Shown here: in pieces, positions 8,704-58,367 of the stretch | Layout: each line of letters starts with the position of its first letter | How positions within the stretch are numbered: position 1 is the first letter of the stretch | Assembly (NCBI GenBank): GCA_905221615.1 | Contig: CAJNDT010006134.1 | Coordinates: 318,501 to 382,500, forward strand | From: Symbiodinium sp. CCMP2592 | Taxonomy: Eukaryota; Sar; Dinophyceae; Suessiales; Symbiodiniaceae | DNA: 64,000 nt | Direction of reading: 5' to 3' | Program-made: the position numbers and the translations under genes | Notes under the pieces: generated by a model | The model's input: only the letters and a program-made list of their open reading frames with translations | The model's database searches: none | Told to the model about the DNA's origin: nothing

Positions 8704-10321
8704 TCACCGATGCTCCACCCGGCCAGCCAGCACGTGGTCGACAGCCCCGATCTTGGTCTTGTTGTAGATGCCGGAGATCGGCATCCTCAAACTGACGTCC
8801 TGGACAAGGTGTTCCGGGCGCCCAAGCGACCTGTCAACTGCCCAGTTGACAGGTCGCTTGGGCGCTCGGAACACCTTGTCCAGGACGTCATAAACGGTGT
8901 CCACATGGATCTTCTCTGCTGCAGACCTCAACGTCCTCTCACCACCAAAGTCAGCATGACCCCAGGTCACGACGGCTCCATCGCCCAGAATGGCGGCAAA
9001 AGCGCGCTGAGAGGCTTGGATCTGCTGCACATTCTTCAGCTGGCCCTGCGCAGCCCTGCTCTCACCACCAAAGCCAGCATGACCCCAGGTCACGACGGCT
9101 CCATCGCCCGGAATGGCGGCAAAAGCGCTCTGAGACGCTTGGAGCTGGTGCACATTCTTCAGCTGGCCCTGCACAGTGCTGCTCTCACCACCAAACTCAG
9201 CATGACCCCAGGTCACGACGGCTCCATCGCCCAGAATGGCGGCAAAAGCGCCCTGAGACGCTTGGAGCTGCTGCACATTCTTCAGCTGAGCATAACCCCA
9301 GGTCACGACGGATCCATCGCCAAGAATGGCAGCAAAAGCGCGCCGAGACGCTTGGAGCTGCTGCACATTCTTCAGCTGGCCCTGCACAGCGCTGCTCACC
9401 ACCAAACTCAGCATGACCCCAGGTCACGACGGCTCCATCGCCCAGAATGGCGGCAAAAGCGCCCTGAGACGCTTGGAGCTGCTGCACATTCTTCAGCTGG
9501 CCCTGCGCAGCGCTGCTCTCACCACCAAACTCAGCATGACCCCAGGTCACGACGGATCCATCGCCAAGAATGGCAGCAAAAGCGCGCCAAGACGCCTGCA
9601 TCTGCTGCACCTCTTTCAGCTGAGTCTGCACAACATGACTGTCGCCACCGTAGTCGGGTGCACCCCAAGTCACCACGGATCCATCACCAAGAATGGCAGC
9701 AAAAGCGCCGGCAGAGGCCCAGATCTGCTGCACGTTGTTCAGCTGACCCTGCGCAGCCCTACTGTTGCCACCACCAGCAGGATGTCCCCAGGTCAAGACA
9801 GATCCATCGTCAAGAATGGCAGCAAAAGCATGCTGAGAGGCTTGGATCTGCTGCACATTCTTCAACTGACCCTGCACAGCGCGGCTGTCACCACCATAAG
9901 CAGCATTTCCCCAGGTCACCACGGATCCATCGCGAAGAATGGCAGCAAAAGCATAAGCAGAGGCTTGAATCTGCTGTACATTTTTCAGCTGACCCTGCAC
10001 AGCACTACTGTCGCCGCCACCGTCAGCATCACCCCACGCCACCACGGATCCATCGTCAAGAATGGCCGCAAAAGCACTGAAAGAGGCTTGAACTTGAACC
10101 GTCTTGCACAACAAGGTCAGGAAGTCACCATTCTGCACCCTGGCTTTCTTGACCTGCACACATCCTTCCACGACGCATCCGGATGAGTCCACGAGCTGCC
10201 CGGTCCCGACCCCGAGTGCAATCTGTGCCCGTCGCTTCAATGTTGCCACCGTCTCATCCAACGCTGCTTGCACTACGACAGCCTGCCCACTGATCAGTCC
10301 CACTTCCACGTGAATCGACAT
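8704..10321 (-). pseudogene. Ubiquitin-like/RCC1-like repeat protein, copy 1, frameshifted
   Basis: The minus strand encodes an N-terminal ubiquitin-like beta-grasp segment (about residues 1-75, starting MSIHVEVGLISG) followed by about ten 41-residue repeats with the core DGSVVTWG. This period is close to the BLIP-II type of RCC1-like propeller and shorter than classic RCC1 repeats. I chose the MSIH start at 10321 because it is conserved in all four copies. Near 9396 two bases present in sister repeats (gctctcacc against gctcacc) are missing, so the frame breaks. The repeats continue in another frame to about 8940. One repeat near 9284 is shortened. After the last repeat the frame enters an unrelated tail containing a 98-bp palindrome and stops at 8704. 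Sister copies lack that tail. The last repeats are nearly identical in DNA, which suggests recent 123-bp unit expansion. The molecular role is unknown; a protein-interaction propeller is the family-level inference. Confidence 0.8.
8793..8890. repeat. 98-bp near-perfect palindrome
   Basis: Two 48-bp arms (8793-8840 and 8843-8890) are inverted copies with one mismatch and a 2-bp centre. The sequence is GC-rich and contains TGACGTCCTGGACAAGG and its complement. It lies in the tail fused to RCC1-like copy 1 and is not present beside copy 2. It is longer in arm and richer in GC than the AT-rich mini-elements of this window, and I see no second copy. Confidence 0.9.
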
Positions 10322-10499
10322 GTTGCGCACCGGCAATATTCAATCCCTCACCCGTTTACAGGCATTGCGAAAAGGGATTTAAATATGTTGCAAGTTTGGG
10401 TTGGCAGTGCCGGGCTTTAGGCACGCATACCCTGCTTTGCTGCTTGCTTTCACTACTGTCCATCTCTGACGGGAATCATTCCGAGAACGGGGCTGTGGT

Positions 10500-18042: not shown

Positions 18043-20123
18043 GCTTTGCTGTGTCAGGTGTATGTGCAGTATGCATTCTTCTTGGTTGGTGTTAAGGATT
18101 GAAAGTTCCTGTGATGCCAAGCGAATCCAAGAAGTGATAAGCCGAGCTTAGCTTTGTCATCTGTTCACCTTTTGAGGGTGTGTGTTAGGAACTAAGGCTT
18201 GCAGCAAGACTAACGCTTTGTGTGAGTAGATTTGCCCGTCATGCCGAGAAGTCACGAACTGAGGCTTCTTTCGTCCAGGCTGATTGGGAAGCTTTCTTCG
18301 AGATGTGTCCTGCAAACGATCGAGCACCGCAGATGAAGCTCACGTTTTCAGTCAGTGGGATCTTGGGAAACGTGACTTGGCCAGAGGTTGATGATTGTGC
18401 CAATCTTGGGTGCTTCTGCGAGCACTGGTAATTGAGAGAGTTGCTATCTATTCCTGAGCTGGTCCTGCACAGCACTGCTGTCGCCGCCGCCGTCGGCATC
18501 ACCCCAGGTCACAACGCTTCCACCCGCAACAATGGCAGCAAAAGCAATCTGAGTCGCTTGGATCTGCTGCACATTCTTGAGCTGAGTCTGCACAGCACTG
18601 CTGTCTGCACCATTGTAAGTGTAACCCCAGGTCACAACAGATCCATCGCCCAGAATGGCGGCAAAAGCGCCCTTAGACGCTTGGAGCTGCTGCACATTCT
18701 TCAGCTGGCCCTGCACAGCGCCGCTCTCACCACCAAAGTCAGCATGACCCCAGGTCACGACGGATCCATCGCCCAGAATGGCGGCAAAAGCGCCCTGAGA
18801 CGCTTGGAGCTGCTTCACATTCTTGAGCTGACCCTGCACAGCACTACTGTCGGCACCGAAATCAGCATCACCCCAAGTCACGACAGATCCATCACCGAGA
18901 ATGGCAGCGAAAGCACTGCTGCTAGCTTCAATCTGCTGCACATGTTTCAAGTGCTGCTGCACAGCGCTACTGTCGCCACCTCGGACAGCATCACCCCACG
19001 TCACGACGGATCCGTCGTCAAGCATTGCAGCAAAAGCCTGTGCAGAGGTCTGAATCTGCTGCACCTTTTTCAGCTGGCTCTGCACAGCACTGCTGCAGCC
19101 ACCTGCCCAGGGAGCACCCCATGTCACAACGGATCCGTCGTCAAGAATGGCAGCAAAAGCCCAGCCAGAGCCTTCGATCTGCTGCACATTCTTCAGCTGA
19201 TCCTGCGCGTCGCTGCTATCACCGCCAGAGAGAGCACAGCCCCAGGTCACCACGGATCCATCTTCAAGAAGGGCGGCAAAAGCATTCTGAGAGGCTTGGA
19301 TCTGATGCACATTCTTCAGCTGATCCTGCACAGCACTACTGTCGCCACCCGTGAAACCATTGCCCCAGGTCACAACCGATCCATCGTGTAGAATAGCAGC
19401 AAAGGCGGCTCCTGACGCTTGTATCTGCCGTACATTTTTCAACTGACCTTGCACAGCACTACTGTCGCCGCCACTTCTAGCATCACCCCAGGTCACCACG
19501 GATCCATCGCCAAGAATGGCCGCAAAAGCCCTGAAAGAGGCTTGAACTTGAACCGTCTTGCACAACAAGGTCAGGAAGTCACCATCCTGCACCCTGGCTT
19601 TCTTGACCTGCACACATCCTTCCACGACGCATCCGGATGAGTCCAAGAGCTGCCCGGTCCCGACCCCGAGTGCAATCTGCGCCCGTCGCTTCAATGTTGC
19701 CACCGTCTCATCCAACGCTGCTTGCACTACGACAGCCTGCCCACTGATCAGTCCCACTTCCAGGTGAATCGACATGTTGCGCACAATATTCAATCCCTCA
19801 CAGGATTACAGGTATTGCGAAAAGGGATTTACATATGTTGCAAGTTTAGATTGGCAGTGCCGCGCTTTAGGCACGCAGACCCTTCTTTGCTGTTTGCTTG
19901 CACTACTGTCCATCTCTGACGGGAATCATGGCGAGAACGGGGCTGCAATAACAAGCGGCGTGTCAGGGTTTAAGGTTTAGGATTCCTCTGCGGGTTCTTA
20001 TAAGTGTTACTTTAATGTAAGGCGGTTTAGAGCTGTACCGGGAAACCTGGGTTCCATGTCATGCAAGTCACTTGCATGAGCATCTTCATGAGTATCTGAA
20101 CGTCAGTATTTTTCATGTTCCCC
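18043..20123. repeat. Segmental duplication, unit 2 (pairs with 8368-10665)
   Basis: This is the second copy of the gene-plus-flank unit, in the same orientation, about 9.7 kb from unit 1. Similarity fades near 20123 after the GGTTCCATGTCATGCAA block. A weaker relative of the 3' flank is visible at about 23230-23520 beside copy 3. Confidence 0.8.
18444..19775 (-). CDS. Ubiquitin-like/RCC1-like repeat protein, copy 2, intact
   Basis: This is a single uninterrupted reading frame of 443 residues from the conserved MSIHLEVG start; an in-frame Met lies six codons upstream. Residues 1 to about 75 look like a ubiquitin-like domain (VQNGD/VQDGDFLTLL near its end). Nine repeats of about 41 residues follow, each with AFAAILxDGSVVTWG and GGDSSAVQxQLKNVQQIQAS. 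The protein ends QDQLRNR. No intron is needed. Such repeats form beta-propellers in RCC1 and BLIP-II. Dinoflagellate proteins of this look are often auto-labelled HERC-like E3 ligases, but no HECT domain is visible, so a ligase role is not supported. The gene and flanks from about 18043 to 20123 are a duplicate of 8368-10665. Transcription would be on the minus strand, like the other copies. Confidence 0.88.
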   Translation of the reverse strand: MSIHLEVGLISGQAVVVQAALDETVATLKRRAQIALGVGTGQLLDSSGCVVEGCVQVKKARVQDGDFLTLLCKTVQVQASFRAFAAILGDGSVVTWGDARSGGDSSAVQGQLKNVRQIQASGAAFAAILHDGSVVTWGNGFTGGDSSAVQDQLKNVHQIQASQNAFAALLEDGSVVTWGCALSGGDSSDAQDQLKNVQQIEGSGWAFAAILDDGSVVTWGAPWAGGCSSAVQSQLKKVQQIQTSAQAFAAMLDDGSVVTWGDAVRGGDSSAVQQHLKHVQQIEASSSAFAAILGDGSVVTWGDADFGADSSAVQGQLKNVKQLQASQGAFAAILGDGSVVTWGHADFGGESGAVQGQLKNVQQLQASKGAFAAILGDGSVVTWGYTYNGADSSAVQTQLKNVQQIQATQIAFAAIVAGGSVVTWGDADGGGDSSAVQDQLRNR

Positions 20124-23090: not shown

Positions 23091-23538
23091 AGGTGCTAAA
23101 CTTAAACCCCCAACCCTTACATAACCCTAAAGCCTTACGGTCTCCTGTGGTGCTAGGGGCAGCCAAGGCAATAAGCCCTGTTAGTTCTTCGTGTGTTCTC
23201 ATCCGCAGGGCATGGTTTATGGGGCTTTCAGTGAGTTTAGCCCGTCATGCACAGTCTCGAACTCAGGTTTCGCCTGGCCCAAACTAATTGGGAAGGGTTA
23301 TCTTCGAGGATTGTCCTGCAATCTTTGCTGAAACAAGACGGTACTCTTTACTCAGTGCGGATCTTAGGAAGCACGCATTGGCCAGAGGTTCGCCATCTTT
23401 CCGGGTTCAGGCTTGTGCGACTCTGTGAATGTTGCCAAAGCGCCGTGTCATCGATGTGCTTGTGCCGATCTTGGGCGCTGCTGCGAGCACGAACAGGCGA
23501 GTTGCTATCTAGTCCTGAACTGGTCCTCAAAACAAGTA

Positions 23539-23640
23539 ATGTAGCGGCCTTAATGATTAGAATAGGGTTTTTGGGGGTTCCTTATTATGTATATAGTATA
23601 ATTTCCCCCAAACCCTATCTAATCAATAAGGCCCCTATAT
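23539..23640. mobile_element. Mini-element family E (copy 5) at the 3' end of RCC1-like copy 3
   Basis: Arms ATGTAGCGGCC / GGCCCCTATAT, flanked by TA (23537-23538, 23641-23642). The rebuilt empty site TACTGTCACC aligns with TACTGTCGCC of the sister genes. Confidence 0.85.
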
Positions 23641-23645
23641 TACTG

Positions 23646-25176
23646 TCACCACCCATCACCCCAGGTGACAATGGATCCATCGCTCAAAATGGCAGCGAAA
23701 GCTCCGACTGAACCTCCAATCTGCTGCACATTCTTCAGCTGACTCTGCACCTAGTTCATGGTTGGGATAGGATTAAAAATTTACTTACATTTATATTCCT
23801 TATTGGGTTTAAGTACCCATAAAAATGTAAAATGTAACCCAACTCTATGACAAAGGCACAGCACTACTGTCGCCACCCGAGTCAGCATCACCCCAGGTGA
23901 CGACAGATCCATCGCCGAGAATGGCAGCAAACGCGTCGCCACAAGACTGGACCTGCTGCACGTTCTTCAGCTGATGCTGCACAGCAGCACTGTCGCCACC
24001 AACGTCAGTAAGACCCCAGGTCACGACGGATCCATCGTCAAGAATGGCCGCAAAAGAACCGCTAGAGGCTTGAATCTGCTGCACATTCCTCAACTGACCC
24101 TGCACAGCGTGGCTGTCACCACCATGAGCAGCATTTCCCCAGGTCACGACGGATCCATCGCGAAGAATGGCAGCAAAAGCGGCGTCACAGGCTTGAATCT
24201 GCTTGACATTCTTCAGCTGTTTCTGCACAGCACTACTGTCGCCACCAGAGTGCGCAGCACCCCAGGTCACGACTGACCCATCGCCAAGAATGGCAGCAAA
24301 AGCCCGGGTCGAGGCTTGGATCTGCTGCACATTCCTCAGTTGACCTTGCACAGCACTACTGTCACCACCAAAGCCAGCAGCACCCCAGGTCACAACGGAT
24401 CCATCGCAAAGCATGGCAGCAAAAGCACCGCTAGAGGCTTGGATCTGCTGCACATCCTTCAGTCGACCCTGCACAGCGCGACTGTCGCCACCACGGACAA
24501 CACTACCCCAAGTCACAACGGATCCCTCGCCAAGAATAGCGGCAAAAGCAGTGCGAGTGGCTTGAATCTGCTGCACATTCTTCAGCTGACTCTGCACAGC
24601 ACTACTGTCGCCACCCGATTCAGCATCACCCCAGGTCACGACGGATCCATCGTAAAGAATGGCAGCGAAAGCTTCGTCAGAGGCTTGGATCTGCTGCACA
24701 TTCTTCAGCTGAGTCTGCACAGTGCTGCTGTCGGCACCGAATGCAGGATGACCCCAGGTCACGACGGATCCATCGTCAAGAATGGCAGCAAAAGCGCCCA
24801 AACGACAGGCTCGGATCTGCTGCACAGTCTTGAGCTGATCCTGTACAGCAGTACTGTCGCCGCCAGAGTCAGCAGCACCCCAGGTTACAACCGATCCATC
24901 TGCAAGAATAGCAGCAAATGCGGTACAACAGGCTTGAACTTGAACCGTGTTGGTAGTCAAGAACGTCAAGGAGTCACCGTTCTGCATCCTGGCTTTCTTT
25001 ATCGGAGCACATCCTTCCAGGACGCATCCAGAGGTGTCCAAGAGCCGCCCTGGCCCTGCACTGAGCCCGAGTGCAATCTGTGCACGTCGCTTCAATGTTC
25101 CCACCGACTCATCCAGGGCCGCTTGCACAGTGGCTCTCCTCCCACTGATCAGCCCAACTTCCACGTCAATCGACAT
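23646..25176 (-). CDS. Ubiquitin-like/RCC1-like repeat protein, copy 3, with a putative introner
   Basis: The frame starts at MSIDVEVGLISG (25176). Read without splicing it stops at 23845, inside an inserted element. Removing 23751-23859 as an intron joins two exons: 23860-25176 (439 codons) and 23646-23750 (34 codons plus stop). The join is phase 0 and regenerates the repeat text SSAV-QSQLKNVQQI. The predicted protein has 473 residues, with a ubiquitin-like start, nine 41-residue repeats and a tenth ending IVTWGDGW. A TA-flanked palindromic element at 23539-23640 lies just beyond the stop. It occupies the place where copy 2 carries its last repeat end, so the C-terminus is eroded relative to copy 2. 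The gene could be functional with one 109-nt intron, or a pseudogene. The upstream flank keeps partial similarity to the flanks of copies 1 and 2. Confidence 0.75.
23751..23859 (-). other. Putative introner: element-derived GT-AG intron in RCC1-like copy 3
   Basis: A 105-bp element (23751-23855) with imperfect inverted ends splits a conserved RCC1-like repeat. The four bases GCAC (plus strand) occur on both sides, at 23747-23750 and 23856-23859. On the coding strand the upstream GTGC duplicate plus the element runs GTGCCTTTGTC to CATGAACTAG. That is a 109-nt GT-AG segment followed by G, the base often seen after AG in dinoflagellate introns. Removing it restores codons GCT-GTG-CAG exactly as in the sister repeats. 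One duplicate supplies the donor GT, the element supplies the acceptor AG, and the second duplicate remains as exon. I infer splicing; no transcript was seen. Confidence 0.7.
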
Positions 25177-25199
25177 GCGCCGCAACGGCGATATCCTTT

Positions 25200-31331: not shown

Positions 31332-31422
31332 CCCTAAGGCCCCAAAGTAGTTCCTTTTTGGGATTACCTTATAGGATTCTATATACGAACCCCAAAAAAG
31401 GAACTACTTTGGGGCCTTAGGG
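31332..31422. mobile_element. Mini-element family H (copy 2)
   Basis: Nearly perfect palindrome: CCCTAAGGCCCCAAAGTAG at the left, its complement at the right, flanked by TA. Confidence 0.86.
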
Positions 31423-46676: not shown

Positions 46677-46703
46677 TATACCCTCAACCCTAAACCCTTT
46701 ACG

Positions 46704-49926: not shown

Positions 49927-51261
49927 CTATCGAACAGGCTTTAGCTCGTCCGGGAAAGGAACGGGGTCGCTACCACCGTCAGTACCACCCCAACTCACGA
50001 TCGATCCATCGTCAAGAATGGCAAGAAACGAACTGTCAGAGCCTTGGAGCTCTGGCACATGCTTCAGCTGGCTCTGCACAGCAGTACTGTCGCCTCCGGA
50101 GTCAGGATCACCCCAGGTGACGACAGATCCATCGCCCAAAATGGCGGCAAACGCCCCGCCAGAGGCTTGGATCTGCTGCACGTTCGTTAGCTGACCCTGC
50201 ACAGCACTGCTGTCACCACCATAGACAGCAAGACCCCAGGTCACAACGGATCCATCGCCAAGAATGGCAGCAAAAGCAGCGCAAGAGGCTTGGATCTGCT
50301 GCACATTCTTCAGCCGATCCTGCACAGCACTGCTGTCACCACCAAAGTCAGCAGAGCCCCAGGTCACCACCGATCCATCAACAAGAATGGCGGCAAGAGC
50401 ATTGGCACAGGCTTGGATTTGCTGGACATTCTTCAGCTGGCCACGCACAGCACTGCTGTCCCCACCAAAGTCAGCATGACCCCAGGTCACAACGGATCCA
50501 TCGCCCAAAATGGCAGCAAAAGCGTAGTCAGAGGATTGGATCTGCTGCACTTGCTGCAGCCAAACCTGCACAGCTCTGCTGTCGCCACCGAAGTCATCAC
50601 GACCCCAGGTCACCACGCATCCATCGACAAGAATGGCAGCAAAAGCCCTGCTAGTGGCTTGAATCTGTCGCACATTCTTGAGCTGACCCTGCACAGCACT
50701 ACTGTCGCCACCGCACTCAGCATCACCCCAGGTCACTACACATCCGTCGCCAACAATGGCAGCAAAGGCGCCGCCAGTGGCTTGGATCTGCTGCACATTC
50801 GTCAGCTGACCTTGAACGGCGCTGCTGTCGCTGCCAAAAATGGGAAGACCCCAGGTCACCACGGATCCATCGCCAAGAATGGCAGCAAAAGCCCCGCGAG
50901 AGGCTTGGATCTGCTGCACATCCTTCAACTTTTCCTCCACCTCACTGCTGTCGCCACCTAGGCCAGCAGCACCCCAGGTCACCACGGATCCATCGCCAAG
51001 AATTGCAGCGAAAGAGCTTTCAGTGGATTGAATTTGCACTCTCTTTACATGCAAGGTCAGCACGTCACCGTTTCGAATCTGGCAATCTGCTGTCTCTGCA
51101 CCTCCGTCCAGAACGACTCCAGAGGAGTTTAGCAACCGCCCTTTGCCGACTCCCAGTGCGATCCTTGCCCGTTGTGCCAACGTCTCCACAGTTTCGTCTA
51201 AGCCTGCTTGCACAGTAGCTGTCTTGCCACTGAGAAGTGAAACTTCCACTGCAATCGACAT
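49927..51261 (-). CDS. Ubiquitin-like/RCC1-like repeat protein, copy 4, intact
   Basis: This uninterrupted minus-strand frame has 444 residues from the conserved MSIAVEVSLLSGKTATVQ start. An in-frame Met 14 codons upstream gives a longer but non-conserved start. Residues 1 to about 75 form the ubiquitin-like segment (IRNGDVLTLHV). Nine repeats of about 41 residues follow. The last is divergent (SFLAILDDGSIVSWG), and the C-terminus PFPDELKPVR differs from the other copies. The gene is the most divergent of the four and lacks the duplicated flanks of copies 1 and 2. It is followed upstream (51350 onward) by an AT-rich microsatellite island that may hold its promoter side. A propeller-fold scaffold is the family inference; the partner is unknown. 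Confidence 0.87.
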   Translation of the reverse strand: MSIAVEVSLLSGKTATVQAGLDETVETLAQRARIALGVGKGRLLNSSGVVLDGGAETADCQIRNGDVLTLHVKRVQIQSTESSFAAILGDGSVVTWGAAGLGGDSSEVEEKLKDVQQIQASRGAFAAILGDGSVVTWGLPIFGSDSSAVQGQLTNVQQIQATGGAFAAIVGDGCVVTWGDAECGGDSSAVQGQLKNVRQIQATSRAFAAILVDGCVVTWGRDDFGGDSRAVQVWLQQVQQIQSSDYAFAAILGDGSVVTWGHADFGGDSSAVRGQLKNVQQIQACANALAAILVDGSVVTWGSADFGGDSSAVQDRLKNVQQIQASCAAFAAILGDGSVVTWGLAVYGGDSSAVQGQLTNVQQIQASGGAFAAILGDGSVVTWGDPDSGGDSTAVQSQLKHVPELQGSDSSFLAILDDGSIVSWGGTDGGSDPVPFPDELKPVR

Positions 51262-51349
51262 GACCAAAGAGAAATCTCCAATACCAGTTTTCGATTTAAT
51301 CACAGATTCGGTACTGAGATTGAAGAGTCTAGGATCCAGATGTTGGATT

Positions 51350-57600: not shown

Positions 57601-57711
57601 TTAGAAGCTGCCCCCACCCTGTAATAGTGACTATAAGGATTATATATGAATATATTAGGGCCCTATTATTTTCCTATTATACCACTATTACAGGGTCGGG
57701 GCAGCTTCTAA
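57601..57711. mobile_element. Mini-element family I (copy 2, 8-bp duplication)
   Basis: Ends TTAGAAGCTGCCCC / GGGGCAGCTTCTAA, flanked by the perfect 8-bp duplication GGCAAAAG (57593-57600 and 57712-57719). The interior nearly matches copy 1. Confidence 0.9.
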
Positions 57712-58169: not shown

Positions 58170-58367
58170 CTGTTGATGATATAAATCCTGCATTACCCAT
58201 AATAAGGAATATACCATAATTCCCATAGTTTAGGGTCCTTAAGGTAATGCAGGATTTATATCATCACCCTAAACCCTAAAACCCTATAGATCCCTTAAAA
58301 GGAGCCCCTTAAAGGTACCTCTATAGATCCCTTTAAAGGGAACCCTAGGGATTTATATCATCAACCC
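58170..58367. mobile_element. Mini-element family B (copy 5) with a telomere-like insertion
   Basis: TA-flanked B element whose right arm is interrupted by 82 bp (58267-58348) of CCCTAAA-type and CTATAGATCCC-type sequence. The 15-bp end GGATTTATATCATCA is present on both sides of that insert. Confidence 0.8.

Follow-up and report, generated by a model that had tools for sequence, protein, structure and literature searches.

A candidate intron in an RCC1-like repeat gene

How new introns originate is an old question, which introners answer for some lineages. The locus described here raises it for a single gene of Symbiodinium sp. CCMP2592: does a short mobile element lying within a tandem-repeat gene serve as an intron of that gene? 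The gene is part of a 64,000-nucleotide stretch that was analysed as a whole (the window), and its features are as follows (TSD, target-site duplicate; TIR, terminal inverted repeat).

23860-25176, minus strand: upstream exon of the RCC1-like repeat gene, with 41-codon repeats and a possible ATG at 25174-25176 (translation; Pfam RCC1_2 and RCC1-like domain)
23751-23859, minus strand: predicted GT-AG intron of 109 nt, consisting of the upstream TSD copy and the element (excision brings the RCC1-like repeats back into one frame; a TAG is read if the segment is retained)
23856-23859, minus strand: upstream TSD, GTGC, with the putative 5′ splice donor GT at 23858-23859
23751-23855, minus strand: candidate introner element of 105 nt, non-autonomous and MITE-like (genome search; alignment of 91 copies of 90-110 bp)
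23838-23855, minus strand: 5′ TIR CTTTGTCATAGAGTTGGG, family form CTTTGTCATAGTTGGG (comparison of consensus ends)
23751-23766, minus strand: 3′ TIR CCCAACCATGAACTAG, with the putative AG acceptor at 23751-23752
23747-23750, minus strand: downstream TSD, GTGC, which would stay in the exon
23646-23750, minus strand: downstream coding part of 34 codons, followed by a TGA stop at 23646-23648 (translation)

The original prediction had placed a 105-bp element with a perfect 4-bp target duplicate in an RCC1-like repeat, and this observation is confirmed. The element occupies exactly 23751-23855 on the minus strand, the duplicate reads GCAC on the plus strand at 23747-23750 and 23856-23859, and Pfam identifies the host gene as RCC1-like (RCC1_2, E 1e-24). 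On the coding (minus) strand the order is exon ..AGTGCT, then GTGC, then CTTTGTCATAG...CATGAACTAG, then GTGCAGAGTCAG.., with the GT coming from the upstream duplicate and the AG from the 3′ end of the element, as had been claimed. Removal of 109 nt was also said to restore the frame and the repeat. It does so: ...GGDSSA is then followed by VQSQLKNVQQIGGSVGAFAAILSDGSIVTWGDGW*, a stretch of 34 additional codons that is similar to, and in register with, the neighbouring repeats, and the joined reading after excision is SSAVQSQLKNVQQIGGSVGAFAAILSDGSIVTWGDGW. When the segment is retained, the frame closes with ...SSAVPLS at a TAG that lies 12 nt inside it.

The tandem repeats had been put forward as an internal reference for the ancestral exon, and sister repeats without an interruption are indeed present in the same gene. 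We searched the genome with a 203-base query made of the two exon parts without the insert. At least 270 matches were obtained, with 77-84% identity, end to end, among the matches listed; the best other match (84%) covers query bases 9-203 of 203 without a large interruption. The insertion site itself splits the query into two pieces, 1-102 and 99-203. Because the query is a tandem repeat, these matches are best taken as sister repeats and paralogues and not as orthologous empty sites, and the empty sites expected for an introner do exist at the level of repeats and paralogues. In the window, RCC1-like repeat stretches with similar N-terminal regions are found on one strand at 8707-10339, 18447-19805, 23649-25197 and 49930-51348.

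The element itself was compared with a 99-bp consensus derived from 91 copies (90-110 bp), to which the copies are 82-99% identical over aligned bases (median 94%). The window element reaches 98% over aligned bases and carries six inserted bases at two places (AG, and 4 bp around GTAA). Given this 98% identity, the window copy is young. Its self-folding beats 200 of 200 shuffles (z -3.4). The TIRs are imperfect, the consensus ends being inverted-identical at 13 of 20 positions, and they place CT at both outer ends, so that each end finishes in AG on its own strand (..CTAG sense, ..CAAAG antisense). We consider it very probable that a non-autonomous TIR transposon (a MITE) present in many copies has inserted here recently and works as an introner.

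The 3′ end of the host gene may be decaying, and splicing is perhaps unneeded there, since the downstream part is short, the tail is about 8 nt short of a paralogue before the TGA (compared by eye), that TGA comes 34 codons on, and a second hairpin element lies just downstream in the following partial repeat. It is conceivable, if unlikely, that the family is a genuine introner family whose copy in the window is a recent insertion in a decaying gene tail, un- or poorly spliced, with the protein ending 34 codons early (..SSAVPLS*). The youth of the copy fits such a history, as do the short downstream part ending at TGA and the second hairpin, and a repeat protein may lose its last 34 codons without harm. 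Against it, donor, acceptor and frame are arranged here as in the other donor-type copies described below, and an unselected insertion would be unlikely to combine a TSD starting with GT, GC or GA (a GH copy) with restoration of the repeat frame. We retain the reading of the window copy as a working introner.

The second hairpin element belongs to another family (AAGTAATGTAGCGGCC...GGCCCCTATATTACT) and lies at 23534-23644 in the final, incomplete repeat of the gene, about 100 bp 3′ of the candidate introner. A genome search with it gave 937 first-look candidates, of which 40 were scored; those other than the window's own are 77-88% identical on the better strand. The paralogue at 18447-19805 has an uninterrupted tail. 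A reading of 23534-23644 as a further intron of the gene gained no support from the donors tried by eye, none of which kept the frame of the paralogue.

The element family across the genome

Copies of the element elsewhere, on which the original prediction depended, do exist. In the genome searched (1,098,105,373 bases in 5383 contigs), 40 of 2023 first-look candidates were scored, and these comprise the window copy and 39 others at 89-91% identity. End-to-end patterns (71-101 bp, intact ends, the same TSD class on both sides) matched 450 copies besides the window copy, which at 105 bp is too long for them; this count (154 + 293 + 3 in the three sense TSD classes) does not extend to copies whose ends or length depart from the pattern or whose TSDs are mutated or mixed. 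The same patterns, reversed as a control, gave 0 matches. At 36 loci picked regardless of TSD, the window copy included, an exact 4-bp TSD was present in 17, and the TSDs across these loci were varied (ATTA, ATAT, GTGC, TGGC, GTGT and others). The inverted ends and the 4-bp TSD of fixed length are hallmarks of a TIR DNA transposon or MITE, and the family is MITE-like with recent copies. Moreover, many similar copies are dispersed in one genome, as an introner requires.

No second copy was found within the window by BLAST with the element, the next element-internal match being 20 bp. Scanning the window with the two 16-base ends at up to three substitutions returned the element's own 3′ end, five weaker look-alikes and 0 5′ ends, a scan that misses even the window copy's own 5′ end, which has a 2-bp insertion. 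One look-alike end, at 46703, was examined and rejected as a further copy. The best 60 results of an automatic scan of the window for TIRs with TSDs were mostly AT microsatellites, with a few unrelated MITEs. At 31342-31412, 57610-57702 and 58183-58257 the window has other short segments whose ends are almost perfectly inverted and which have direct repeats of 4 bp (GGCC, AGCT and ATAT). In addition, an 86-bp segment at 8799-8884, with inverted ends and ACGT flanks, overlaps an open frame (8707-9423) with RCC1-like repeats.

Coding context, orientation and target-site bias

If the TSD acts as the donor, GH copies are expected in exons in the sense orientation and other copies are not. We sampled 106 loci (36 regardless of TSD, 50 from the GH pattern and 20 from the non-G pattern), dropping six flank-sharing duplicates. 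Among copies with an exact TSD, an open frame of 30 codons or more extended to each side of the joined flanks in 26 of 41 GH copies (window included) vs 5 of 25 non-GH copies (Fisher p = 0.0006). The difference was also found at 40 codons (15/41 vs 2/25; p = 0.009) and at 60 codons, where numbers are small (7/41 vs 0/25; p = 0.03). For copies with inexact TSD, the corresponding counts were 9/13 GH and 3/21 non-GH at 30 codons, and 2/13 and 0/21 at 60. When the join was moved by 1 or 2 nt, 19 or 18 of the exact GH joins stayed open at 30 codons, 10 or 10 at 40 and 3 or 4 at 60; exact non-GH joins changed little at 30 codons, from 5 to 6 and 6. Some shifted joins do remain open, those of L061-L065 by 2 nt and that of L071 by both 1 and 2 nt. 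Copies without a donor in the TSD mostly lack open frames and seem to lie in non-coding DNA, and the family is not restricted to introns.

Among 14 coding copies chosen by eye from the open ones, retention brings an in-frame stop inside the intron in all 14, and the intron length is not a multiple of three in 11. Pfam was run on ten GH joins (nine with exact TSD, plus L018), chosen by eye from 35 with open frames of 25 codons or more. A family was matched at E 0.01 or better in six of them, with the other four lacking one, and the best match spans the join in three. In L040, ankyrin repeats cover residues 1-112 with the join after 100, and in L084 an ammonium transporter domain covers residues 1-54 with the join after 36; both matches exceed the curated cut-off. 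In L052, an RCC1-like match covers residues 9-79 with the join after 55, at E ~0.001 and below the curated cut-off. Elsewhere the match lies beside the join and not across it: RING in L046, LRR in L075, and a weak MFS match below the cut-off in L061. Ten control joins, taken from 13 open for at least 25 codons, gave 0 Pfam families. Copies do, then, interrupt the coding sequence of different genes, with the frame restored by their exact removal. The join of L018 is open for 243 codons and has no Pfam family or matching TSD (GAAG / GCCT); it is perhaps an older intron with a changed border.

The TSDs differ with the orientation in which the element is read. Counted with a single, unchanged element pattern, TSDs in the sense orientation begin with GT, GC or GA in 154 copies, with A, C or T in 293 and with GG in 3, and the antisense-read equivalents are 95 for GT/GC/GA and 16 for GG. 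In a Fisher test, 154:3 differs from 95:16 with p = 0.00012; roughly corrected for genes duplicated in tandem, the comparison is 147:3 vs 93:16 (p = 0.00014). The GH counts of 154 and 95 give binomial p = 0.0002. The two orientations share copies (e.g., those with GH-CC TSDs), and the tests are thus not on independent samples. The sense excess of GH and the scarcity of GG are what a donor role of the TSD would predict, and target preference may contribute to the bias. These data speak for preferential use of the element in the sense orientation.

The AG at either end suggested that the element might act as an intron in both orientations, which we regard as improbable. Antisense readings of the exact GH joins are frame-dependent, 10 of 41 being open at 40 codons vs 3 and 3 when shifted, which would favour such dual use; shadow frames of the coding sense exons are probably the explanation. 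Fourteen exact-TSD copies offer an antisense donor; open frames of 40 codons flank the join on each side in only 2 of them, which are donor-type in the sense orientation as well. For copies that are donor-type in antisense only the figure is 0 of 5, a small sample. Taken with fewer antisense GH copies and the greater antisense tolerance of GG, these counts leave antisense splicing unsupported, and a sense-oriented introner is the reading that we follow.

The family could also be an ordinary MITE unrelated to splicing, its exon insertions being due to chance and the GT...AG coincidental. The many copies outside open frames, and the TSDs that offer no donor, are in keeping with this. It is nevertheless very hard to reconcile with coding joins that track the TSD class, with Pfam matches that span joins, and with an avoidance of GG that is stronger in sense than in antisense TSDs. 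Moreover, in the tandem transporter-like copies L061-L065 all five fetched copies have retained the element, and the joined frame around it is open. We judge this explanation highly improbable. By the sequence tests available, introner is supported as the right name: as the original prediction held, there is a dispersed TIR family with a 4-bp TSD, an element-borne AG, a donor in the TSD and other copies that interrupt frames, one of them (L052) in a second RCC1-like gene.

Proposed mechanism, known introners and choice of donor

The following mechanism is proposed. A putative transposase acting in trans would insert the element and duplicate 4 bp of the target. In the sense orientation the element would supply its own acceptor (..CATGAACTAG), and the donor would be recruited from the upstream TSD copy if this starts with GT, GC or GA. 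The spliceosome would then remove TSD and element, giving an mRNA of the original length and frame. Exon copies with other TSDs would break the gene and be lost, and non-coding copies would persist. For the locus in the window, we infer that the host gene is expressed and that its copy is spliced. A comparable arrangement is reportedly found in the Micromonas and Aureococcus introners of Huff et al. 2016, which are said to be non-autonomous DNA transposons that obtain one splice site from their TSD; unlike the 4-bp TSD of the window family, theirs is said to be 8 bp.

The original prediction pointed to the introners of Amoebophrya as a precedent. This holds for the inverted repeats and direct repeats, which are shared, but a closer precedent is Symbiodinium itself (PMC9860276). 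Since Fig. 2B of Gozashti et al. 2022 (PMC9860276) presents introners of Symbiodinium microadriaticum, the mechanism is already known in the genus, and the window family is a further case, large and recently active. As in the window family, the introners of that figure have a 4-bp TSD, TIRs, an element-borne 3′ splice site and a TSD-derived 5′ splice site, and the example intron spans 115 positions, similar to the 109 nt found here. The host species is different, and the likeness is one of mechanism. Introners of dinoflagellates are also the subject of Roy et al. 2023 (Curr Biol 33:189), which we cite as summarised in PMC11453091. According to the latter article, GC and GA donors are in use in Symbiodiniaceae, and PMC11114475 gives introner elements in 3-5% of Symbiodiniaceae genes. 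The Amoebophrya elements, as described by Farhat et al. 2021 (PMC7789003), have inverted repeats, direct repeats of 3-5 nt at the intron borders and a predicted hairpin, but are defined there mainly on very varied non-canonical splice borders, whereas the window family has GT/GC/GA...AG. No description of the window element in S. tridacnidorum was found in a search of open-licence full text.

The 41 exact GH copies have TSDs starting with GT in 21, GA in 12 and GC in 8, counts of TSDs and not of proven introns. Coding-looking copies are found with each donor: GT in L046, L051, L058, L080 and L084, GC in L052 and L039, and GA in L040, L061-L065, L047 and L075. We lean towards the view that one family recruits all three dinoflagellate donors as the TSD offers them, leaving an orientation-specific footprint in the TSDs. 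If this is true, the family is a genome-wide natural experiment on the 5′ splice sites that the dinoflagellate spliceosome accepts. Several hundred insertions of the same element in one genome, each with a donor supplied by the target, would make donor tolerance measurable, and would also let the strength of selection against unspliceable copies be measured. The RCC1-like gene would then hold a very young case beside its own uninterrupted sister repeats, a neat example in which tandem repeats show the ancestral exon next to the insertion.

Finally, the introner occupies an identical site in transporter-like neighbours on two contigs, L061-L065 (C602) and L047-L048 (C280), and GA is the donor in all seven fetched copies. 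Since neighbouring genes share introner, site and donor, the insertion probably predates the gene duplications, and these shared introners offer a possible clock for the decay of the element.
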